From an uncultured Clostridia bacterium (GTDB taxonomy: Bacteria > Bacillota > Clostridia > Oscillospirales > Acutalibacteraceae), in assembly GCA_946407465.1 (NCBI GenBank), contig CAMJOD010000003.1, forward strand, positions 1 to 38,804: DNA of 38,804 nt. The letters run 5' to 3'. Numbering within the stretch: position 1 is the first letter of the stretch; each line of letters starts with the position of its first letter. Below, piece after piece: positions 12,096-14,580 of the stretch. The notes beneath the pieces were generated by a model, which was not told the origin of the DNA, made no database searches, and saw only the letters and a program-made list of their open reading frames with translations. A program made the position numbers and the translations under genes.

Positions 12096-13511
12096 TTGGA
12101 TGCGATTATAAAATTCTTTAACCAAGTAGACGACGTCATGTATTATCCCATACTGATTATCGTCTTAGCGGCGGCAGGCTTGTATTTTACGGTGCGCACG
12201 CGCGGCGTACAGGTGCGGCTGTTCGGCACCGCCTGCAAGCTGATTGTCGAAAAACCGGCTTCGGCGCAAAAGGTTTCGTCCTTTCAGGCACTGATGGTTT
12301 CCACCGCTTCACGCGTCGGCACCGGCAATATCGTCGGCGTTTCCACCGCGATTTGTCTGGGAGGTCCCGGCGCCTGCTTCTGGATGTGGCTGATGTGCAT
12401 TATCGGCGCCTCGTCGGCGTTTATCGAGAGCACGCTCGCCCAGATTTATAAGCAAAAGGACAAGAACGGTCACTACTTTGGCGGTCCTGCCTACTATATT
12501 GAAAAAGCGCTCAAGGCGCCGGTGATTGCCGGTATCTTCTGCGTATTTCTCATCGCCACCTATGCCTTTGGCTTTAACCTGCTCTGTTCCTATAACCTGC
12601 AGGATTCATTCCGCACCTACAGCTTCTACGACCCCAATCTGACGCCTGTTATTGTCGGCGCCGTGCTGGCAGTCGCCGTGGGTTTTTGCGTCATGGGCGG
12701 CGGCAAGCGCATTGTCAAGCTGACCGAAAAGGTAGTGCCGGTGATGGGCATTGCCTATGTGCTGATTTCGCTGATTATCATCTTTGCGCATGTGATGAAT
12801 ATTCCGCAGACCTTTGCCGCTATTTTTGAGGACGCCTTCAACTTCCGCGCCATCTTCGGCGGTCTGAGCGGCTCGTGCATGATTCTCGGTATCAAGAGAG
12901 GCTTGTATTCCAACGAAGCAGGCGTCGGCTCCGCGCCGAACGCGTCCGCTTCGGCTGACGTGACCCATCCGGTCAAGCAGGGCTTGGTGCAGACCATTTC
13001 GGTCTATATCGACACCATGCTCCTCTGCACCGCCACCGCGCTGATGTGCATCAGCTCCGGCGTAGAGGCAAACAAGGACGTTTCGGGTGCGCCGTATGTG
13101 CAGAACGCGGTTTCGACTGTGTTCGGACAGGCAGGTCCCATCTTTATCACCGTGGCAATGGTGCTCTTTGCGTTCACCACGCTCATCGGCAATCTCTATT
13201 ATGTGGACAACGCGCTCGCCTACCTCAACAAAAAGAGAATGCCCTCCAAGCTGTTTATGCGCATCTTCTACGCGTTCTGCGTGTTGGTTATCTTTGTCGG
13301 CGCGCTGGTGCCGATGGACTTTGCGTGGACGATGGCGGACATCACCATGGGCGGCATGACGCTGATTAATATTCCGTGCTGTGTCATTCTCTCGGGTGTG
13401 GCAATCAAGGCGCTCAAGGATTTTGAGAGTCAGAAAAAGCGCCGGTTGAATCCGGTGTTCCACGCCAAAAGCATCGGGCTGGACAGCAGCAAGGTGGAGC
13501 TTTGGCAATAA
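12096..13511 (+). CDS. AGCS-family sodium:alanine/amino-acid symporter
   Basis: MVSTASRVGTGNIVGVSTAI, FGGPAYYIEKAL, GLYSNEAGVGSAPNASASADVTHPVKQGLVQ. Confidence 0.93.
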   Translation: MDAIIKFFNQVDDVMYYPILIIVLAAAGLYFTVRTRGVQVRLFGTACKLIVEKPASAQKVSSFQALMVSTASRVGTGNIVGVSTAICLGGPGACFWMWLMCIIGASSAFIESTLAQIYKQKDKNGHYFGGPAYYIEKALKAPVIAGIFCVFLIATYAFGFNLLCSYNLQDSFRTYSFYDPNLTPVIVGAVLAVAVGFCVMGGGKRIVKLTEKVVPVMGIAYVLISLIIIFAHVMNIPQTFAAIFEDAFNFRAIFGGLSGSCMILGIKRGLYSNEAGVGSAPNASASADVTHPVKQGLVQTISVYIDTMLLCTATALMCISSGVEANKDVSGAPYVQNAVSTVFGQAGPIFITVAMVLFAFTTLIGNLYYVDNALAYLNKKRMPSKLFMRIFYAFCVLVIFVGALVPMDFAWTMADITMGGMTLINIPCCVILSGVAIKALKDFESQKKRRLNPVFHAKSIGLDSSKVELWQ

Positions 13512-13523
13512 TACGGGTGTTTT

Positions 13524-13682
13524 ATACTATTCTCTGATAAAAGACTTTAAAACAGATGTCGATGGAAAATTCCGCAGAACAAGGCGGAGGACGCAGGAAT
13601 CCTGACGGATTCCGAGGACGACAACGCAGTTATGCGAAATTTTACACGACAGATGTTAAAGGATTTTATTTGAGAATAGTAT
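13524..13682. repeat. ~160 bp near-palindromic MITE-like element / long imperfect hairpin
   Basis: ATACTATTCTC (13524-13534) and GAGAATAGTAT (13672-13682) are perfect inverted ends. Pairing continues inward: ATAAAA/TTTTAT, TTTAA/TTAAA, TGTCG/CGACA, AAAATT/AATTTT, CGCA/TGCG, GGAATC/GATTCC. Confidence 0.75.
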
Positions 13683-13779
13683 TAGCCCACAGGCACAACT
13701 CTTCTCGGCATATCCGCACCCCGGTACAGCAACGGTTTGTCGGAGGTGTCCGTATGCAATTGGCAAAAGGATTTTTTGC

Positions 13780-14580
13780 ATGAAATATTTTATTGATTTT
13801 GAAGCCACGCAGTTTTCGGGCGAGATTATCTCGCTCGGCTGTGTGGATGAGAACGGCAGGGAGTTCTATTCTTTGGTAAAGCCTGCCAAGCCCGGTGAGA
13901 TGACGGAGTTTATCGTCAACCTTACGGGTATCCGTCCCGAGGCGCTTGCCGGTGCACCGTCCGCCGACCGTGTGTTTTCGGATTTTCTCGACTGGCTGAC
14001 GCAGGATGGAACGGTGGAGTTTTTTTGTTACGGCGACAGCGACGCGTATTTTCTCAAGCGCACGCTGCCGCATGTCCGCAGCTTTCGCGGACAGCTCGGG
14101 CTGAGCGTGATTCACACCGCGCTGACCGACTATTCGGTAGTTATCAAAAAGCTCTTTGCGCTCAAGCACAGCGTAGCGCTCAAAAAGGTGGTGTCCTACT
14201 ACCGCGGTGAACCGGTGGAGCAGAATCACAATTCACTGGCGGACGCGCTGCTCTTAAAGGAGATTTATGAGCAGTCGCAGGCACAGCCGGCGCCGGAGAC
14301 TTCGCCGTTTCCCGAATACCAAAAGGGAGCCGATTTGCCGAAGATTCAAAAGCGCGTGATTGCCGTTTCGGGCGGCATGCGCAGGGAGTTTGTCTCCTTT
14401 GGTAAGGCGGCGGACTGGGTCATGTCCGAATATATGAATATGGGTGACACCGTGACCGAAAAAACCAAATCCAAGGTGTGCAGCCGCATCATCTATGCCG
14501 CCGAAAAAGACAAGCGCTACTGCGGCTGCAGCTGGCAGATTACGGGCGCACCGAAGAACGGAGAGAAGAAGCGTGGATGA
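13780..14580 (+). CDS. DEDD-family 3'-5' exonuclease-like protein with an uncharacterised C-terminal region
   Basis: YFIDFEATQFSGEIISLGCVDENG (DxE), HNSLADALLLKEIYE (exonuclease motif III). Confidence 0.75.
   Translation: MKYFIDFEATQFSGEIISLGCVDENGREFYSLVKPAKPGEMTEFIVNLTGIRPEALAGAPSADRVFSDFLDWLTQDGTVEFFCYGDSDAYFLKRTLPHVRSFRGQLGLSVIHTALTDYSVVIKKLFALKHSVALKKVVSYYRGEPVEQNHNSLADALLLKEIYEQSQAQPAPETSPFPEYQKGADLPKIQKRVIAVSGGMRREFVSFGKAADWVMSEYMNMGDTVTEKTKSKVCSRIIYAAEKDKRYCGCSWQITGAPKNGEKKRG

Follow-up and report, generated by a model that had tools for sequence, protein, structure and literature searches.

The window studied here, positions 1 to 38,804 of contig CAMJOD010000003.1 from an uncultured Clostridia bacterium (assembly GCA_946407465.1), contains at 13524-13682 an imperfect palindrome of 159 bp that is a mobile, non-autonomous miniature inverted-repeat transposable element (MITE) with a 3-bp TNA target duplication. 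The middle of the palindrome, hereafter the core, folds as a conserved hairpin that recurs in other MITEs. We think it probable that the element is moved in trans by a DDE transposase with a 3-bp TNA target and that it belongs to an unnamed superfamily of MITEs defined by the shared core and not by the ends.

Mobility of the element

The earlier note on this DNA had read the palindrome as a MITE, a REP-like (repetitive extragenic palindromic) element or a long structured RNA. It took copies with the same ends and empty sites in related strains as signs of mobility, and a single copy in conserved synteny as the sign of a fixed structure. The host genome (G000) is ~2.06 Mb long in 194 contigs and has five nearly complete copies, 96-100% identical, along with several half copies at contig ends; the copies on contigs C107, C25, C160 and C182 are 96-99% identical to the window element. 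A second subfamily in the same genome comprises five copies of about equal length with different arms. Contigs C115, C192 and C70 end within element copies, so the assembly is probably broken up by the repeats, with an underestimate of copy number as the likely result. Of the 59 genomes searched, 16 contain relatives of the element, and almost all of these 16 are from the same genus.

Identical 3-bp TNA sequences stand on both sides of 52 of the 66 independent full-length copies from the genus, compared with a mean of 22.6 matches and a maximum of 32 when left and right flanks were shuffled against each other 2000 times. The duplicated unit is TNA with a variable N (for example TCA/TCA or TGA/TGA). 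For the empty-site test, the flanks of copies from two close relatives were joined and six junctions were inspected at base level. Four are clean element-free sites with a single TNA-like copy (L098/L614, L126/L620, L121/L626 and L125/L631), and at the remaining two (L136 and L117) the junction was too gapped to count as clean. Two relatives keep the gene neighbours of the window's own site without the element, but are too diverged (~75-78%) to be compared base by base there. The element is thus a MITE with a TNA duplication because it is multicopy with the same ends, carries target duplications and has empty sites. This bears out the MITE reading and disposes of the single-copy case, and the REP-like reading found no support.

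As the earlier note had said, the element lies between a sodium:alanine symporter gene (PF01235, ending at 13511) and a gene for an RNase_T-type exonuclease (PF00929, starting at 13780). It begins 13 bp past the symporter stop codon, where a stable hairpin could be a weak terminator. A structure fixed at this locus, for example one that terminates or attenuates transcription of the symporter gene, is nevertheless highly improbable, given the multiple copies, target duplications, empty sites and relatives that keep the neighbours without the element; the sole terminator-like match lies on the other strand. Local structure is refuted as the origin of the element, and a secondary terminator effect is possible.

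Contigs of one relative, genome G004 (for example L156, L160 and L158), contain about 90 sites with ATACTAATCCTTGATA-like ends, some of them ~42-bp palindromes made of the two ends only, with the TNA repeat retained on both sides. They may have arisen from full elements by deletion, or may be mobile units of minimal size. At L600, around 1491-1950, a second palindromic element, with GCAGGCCGTTGAAAAAC as its ends, is nested inside a core-bearing MITE and splits it.

A 3-bp TNA target duplication is the rule of the IS1031 group of the IS5 family of insertion sequences (IS) (PMC12016507). Because the duplication fits such transposases, we infer that the mobiliser is an IS5/IS1031-like transposase acting in trans. 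The IS630-like source of the terminal inverted repeats (TIRs) suggested earlier was not borne out, as the duplication is a 3-bp TNA where TA would be expected, and the draft genomes of the genus yielded no autonomous partner; the candidate of an IS630-derived MITE was rejected on the same target rule, the duplicated unit having a variable N. The kind of partner to expect for core-bearing MITEs is shown by an IS5-type IS in genome G066 (L285:1105-2013; 909 bp, two reading frames, domains HTH_Tnp_4 plus DDE_Tnp_4/DDE_Tnp_1). Its 18-bp perfect ends, AGACCTCTTCGGAAATTA, agree at 16 of 18 bases with a MITE that carries the core in other clostridial genomes (L266, L188), and G066 is also the source of another core-bearing element (L224).

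Structure and covariation of the core

The palindrome is present with its outer 11 bp paired as the earlier note described, and it folds far past chance, at -62.8 kcal/mol as RNA (z -10.8; 0/200 shuffles equally good) and -40.3 kcal/mol as DNA (z -9.3). The term near-perfect was generous, as the two strands are only ~69-70% identical to each other; the interruptions are conserved internal loops that recur in relatives, not noise. The element proper spans 157 bp, TACTA...TAGTA, with TTA at each side. It has no open reading frame (ORF) of its own, as had been claimed: zero ORFs are confined to the palindrome, although a frame of 75 aa (13556-13783) runs across it. Like other MITEs, the element is short and non-coding with perfect TIRs, here of 11 bp. 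The Rfam search, at both E-value and gathering thresholds, gave zero matches at the element, and BLAST of the element against phages, plasmids and E. coli genomes likewise gave zero matches. Its features are as follows, with the evidence in brackets.

13522-13524, no strand: left target-site duplication TTA (direct reading; count of target duplications in the genus)
13525-13681, plus strand: mobile element proper, TACTATTCTC...GAGAATAGTA, 157 bp (own-genome copies; empty sites of sister copies)
13524-13534, plus strand: left terminal inverted repeat ATACTATTCTC (sequence; copies with the same ends)
13672-13682, minus strand: right terminal inverted repeat GAGAATAGTAT (sequence; copies with the same ends)
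13565-13644, plus strand: conserved core hairpin (covariance model R1, 83.9 bits, E 8.6e-23; covariation)
13579-13585, plus strand: core anchor ACAAGGC, 5' strand of internal loop 1
13586-13592, plus strand: stem 2, 5' side, GGAGGAC (partner 13616-13622)
13586-13592 with 13616-13622: stem 2 pairs G-C, G.A, A.G, G-C, G.A, A.G, C-G
13596-13613, plus strand: apical hairpin GGAATCC-TGAC-GGATTCC (folding; genus comparison)
13616-13622, plus strand: stem 2, 3' side, GGACGAC
13623-13630, plus strand: core anchor AACGCAGT, 3' strand of internal loop 1
13682-13684, no strand: right target-site duplication TTA (count of target duplications in the genus)

The middle ~80 nt form an asymmetric, strand-specific hairpin with covarying helices. 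From the base upwards it consists of an outer stem, an internal loop (CAAGG-C / AA-CGCAG), the 7-bp stem 2, a second internal loop and the apical hairpin, so that the strand reads ACAAGGC, 7-bp stem, ACGCAG, apical hairpin, C[A/G]AG, returning stem strand and AACGCAGT. The second internal loop (CGCAG / C[A/G]AG) has the same make-up as the first in mirror orientation. Subfamilies in the genus differ in their arms, whereas the middle keeps ACAAGGCGGAGGACGC, the hairpin and AAGGACGACAACGCAGT. The core being a conserved, strand-specific structure, the long structured RNA that the earlier note offered as an alternative is compatible with the MITE reading and not a rival to a MITE origin. In two species, a larger, similar structured insert (GGGGTCCCTACAACGCC..GTTGTGGGGAGAGGAGGAG) replaces the apical hairpin (L101:1239-1516, 278 bp; L090:1258-1516, 259 bp).

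Stem 2 is Watson-Crick paired in Nitrosomonas (GCAGCAC/GTGCTGC) and Acinetobacter (ATGAAAC/GTTTCAT), and in the window GGAGGAC/GGACGAC forms two tandem G.A pairs between G-C pairs. The distinct sequences fall into two length groups, in which standard or G.A pairs occupy 118 of 126 and 54 of 54 stem 2 positions, respectively, pairing that exceeds all of 5000 shuffles (0/5000). In an alignment of 50 sequences, 79.1% of cells were paired versus 55.5% when shuffled, with a score of 0.587 versus 0.180 (0/500), and sliding the pairing partners abolished the covariation signal. Invariance of the anchors in this set is by construction, because the set was partly chosen by a pattern fixing both of them; among unselected genus copies they vary somewhat. 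The 84 sequences outside model building were 88.6% paired, with two-sided changes in 26 of 27 pairs, a result that is supporting and not independent because the model itself guided their alignment (A2). In the initial MAFFT alignment (A1) the CAAG/CGAG columns are shifted by one position between subgroups, and pairing in stem 2 and the apical stem is undercounted there; counts by segment and A2 were therefore added.

Distribution of the core and its relation to the Correia element

A core-frame pattern was scanned over one genome per GTDB species. Matches with a narrow spacing of 49-57 nt lie within palindromes in several lineages, and the palindromic carriers comprise Oscillospiraceae, Lachnospiraceae, Saprospiraceae and other Bacteroidota, Nitrosomonas, Deefgea, Uliginosibacterium, Chitiniphilus and Acinetobacter. 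Pattern matches in coding DNA of Xanthomonas, Bradyrhizobium and others had no palindromic arms and were judged to be chance. The carrier MITEs have lineage-specific ends, including GGGCGTATCTGAAAA, GACCTCTTGCGAAATTAA, AGGGAGTTAGAAATAA and CTAGGGTCTGTTGAC, and differ in target rule (TNA, CTAG, TA-type ends). Many betaproteobacterial elements (larger, ~270 bp) and some larger clostridial ones contain an inverted pair of cores; for the double-core family of genome G133 no partner was found, the family's matches all being on one long contig. With E <= 0.001 as the cut-off, R1 detected the core in 64 of 288 genomes and 47 of 179 genera of the window's class, in 59 of 150 genomes of the betaproteobacterial order around Deefgea and in 9 of 197 around a Draconibacterium genome, figures that are not unbiased rates, since the samples were centred on known carriers, and that carry rough E-values. 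Rfam holds no family for this core. A ZMP/ZTP riboswitch (RF01750, 64.8 bits) was observed at L176:1993-2074, the same locus as a core-bearing MITE.

We regard it as unlikely that the element is an ordinary lineage-specific MITE, its palindrome a by-product of two joined IS ends and its core functionless filler. Its relatives are indeed intergenic, genus-wide and multicopy like other MITEs, and the 42-bp copies at L156 and L160 keep the target duplication with little beyond two ends. Filler would not account for an asymmetric core that different phyla preserve through compensatory changes, between ends that are wholly unlike.

The Correia element of Neisseria (also NEMIS or CREE) is a short, non-coding, high-copy MITE of ~107 or 155 bp with long TIRs, which folds as one hairpin and has a directional core beginning TCAGGACAA at one end; its mobilising mechanism is given as undetermined (PMC2649163). 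Contigs in IMG/VR with the published Correia repeat (PMC5039591), whose Neisseria label rests on the repeat itself, were compared with R1, a model of 82 positions built without any Neisseria sequence. Short Correia copies matched it over its full length (positions 1-82) with 36.2 and 35.5 bits and E about 1e-7, including the unpaired anchors ACAAGGC and AACGC.GT at the right spacing. The seed pattern for Correia copies included part of an anchor, and two Correia elements that it did not pick were also found by R1 (L370:219-302 and L375:9606-9690). A wider scan of viral contigs for 14 bases of the repeat gave mostly unrelated contigs among the matches listed and was not used. In the open-access literature we found no paper linking this core to the Correia element.

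Palindromic elements share a generic stem-loop form, and the ends of the Correia and window elements differ, as would be expected had two unrelated hairpins converged. We doubt this explanation, since the match spans the whole model with specific unpaired anchors at the right spacing, whereas 74 viral loci carrying the anchor pattern by chance reach at most 17.7 bits with R1. The presence of the core in elements of distant phyla, Correia included, suggests that many such MITEs form one old structured family.

Strand preference, significance and known systems

The outer arms of 36 non-redundant genus elements were aligned under a scoring scheme neutral between the two strands. There are 53 G.T pairs to 11 A.C (0.83 versus 0.61 expected from composition), and G.A outnumbers C.T by 121 to 7. 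The fold of one strand is therefore favoured. Judged from these counts, a symmetric cruciform would fit the preference less well than RNA or one particular single strand of DNA.

The core could instead act as DNA, extruded as a cruciform or hairpin that a transposase or a host protein would recognise while the element is transposed or replicated. Extrusion is possible for long palindromes, the core has no orientation bias relative to genes, and the carriers, with their TNA, CTAG and TA-type ends, probably use different transposases. An extruded cruciform exposes both strands, which is at odds with the excess of G.T and G.A on one of them, although one strand could still be preferred by a transposon that works on a particular single strand. 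We consider action as DNA rather unlikely.

Published handling of Correia RNA hairpins, which RNase III binds and either cleaves or protects (PMC2649163), together with the strand asymmetry, underlies our proposal that the core works as an RNA hairpin, to which we would give about an even chance. In the mechanism envisaged, a DDE transposase would move the element in trans and duplicate a 3-bp TNA target, and the core would function when one strand folds on itself, most likely in a transcript that runs through the element, to give a hairpin of the protein-bound or RNase III type. The hairpin may aid the spread of the element or make its insertions tolerable, and the core would have been kept while the ends changed. 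A bolder version, which we hold tentatively and at somewhat less than even chances, makes the core a transferable folded single-strand module, probably RNA, that is itself the unit under selection. Such a module would comprise two mirrored internal loops and a stem that is Watson-Crick paired in some carriers and has tandem G.A pairs in others. MITEs unrelated in their ends and target rules would have carried it in at least three phyla, and the Correia element would be only its first-noticed carrier.

Several results weigh against these proposals. The asymmetry was measured on related sequences, and its p-values are too small. There is no clear preference for orientation relative to genes or for convergent sites, which makes a fixed role in one mRNA position unlikely. 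The long (155-bp) Correia copies, with their internal insert, score weakly with R1 (E 1e-4 to 0.04). The draft genomes of the host genus, a type of assembly that often loses IS copies, contain zero transposases with matching ends (PF01609 matches lack these TIRs and PF13359 has none), and neither these domains, nor TIR pairing in all loci, nor TIR patterns revealed an autonomous partner with ATACTA ends; the Correia element likewise has no known partner.

Bacterial MITEs are treated, in the accessible portions of the literature, as separate, lineage-specific IS leftovers. If the superfamily is real, a shared covarying core would unite many of them in one family and supply a search model. The core, not the ends, would be what is retained, and it should matter for movement, RNA processing or both. 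Work on Correia RNA hairpins and RNase III would gain a much wider context.

Among known systems, Chunjie, QMITE and MITEAba12 are non-autonomous, short and mostly intergenic, with TIRs and target duplications, as is the window element; the accessible portions of their reports, on which this comparison by description relies, describe no core shared across phyla (PMC10969869, PMC6382973). MITEAba12 of Acinetobacter was rejected as a relative, as its ends differ and its target-site duplication is 9 bp. ERIC, a ~127-bp palindromic intergenic element with TIRs and a target duplication (PMC2229807), is similar by description. The IS1031 group of the IS5 family shares the 3-bp TNA duplication (PMC12016507), but no IS with ATACTA ends was found in the host-genus drafts. 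The Correia element has in common with the window element a hairpin with the directional core ACAAGG... AACGCCGT. Its ends are TATAGTGGATTAA (the 26-bp Correia repeat), its target is TA and its host is Neisseria, whereas the window element has ends ATACTATTCTC, that is (T)ATACTA, a 3-bp TNA target and a host among the Clostridia. Because ends and target rule differ, the window element is not a Correia element; what the two share is the core.
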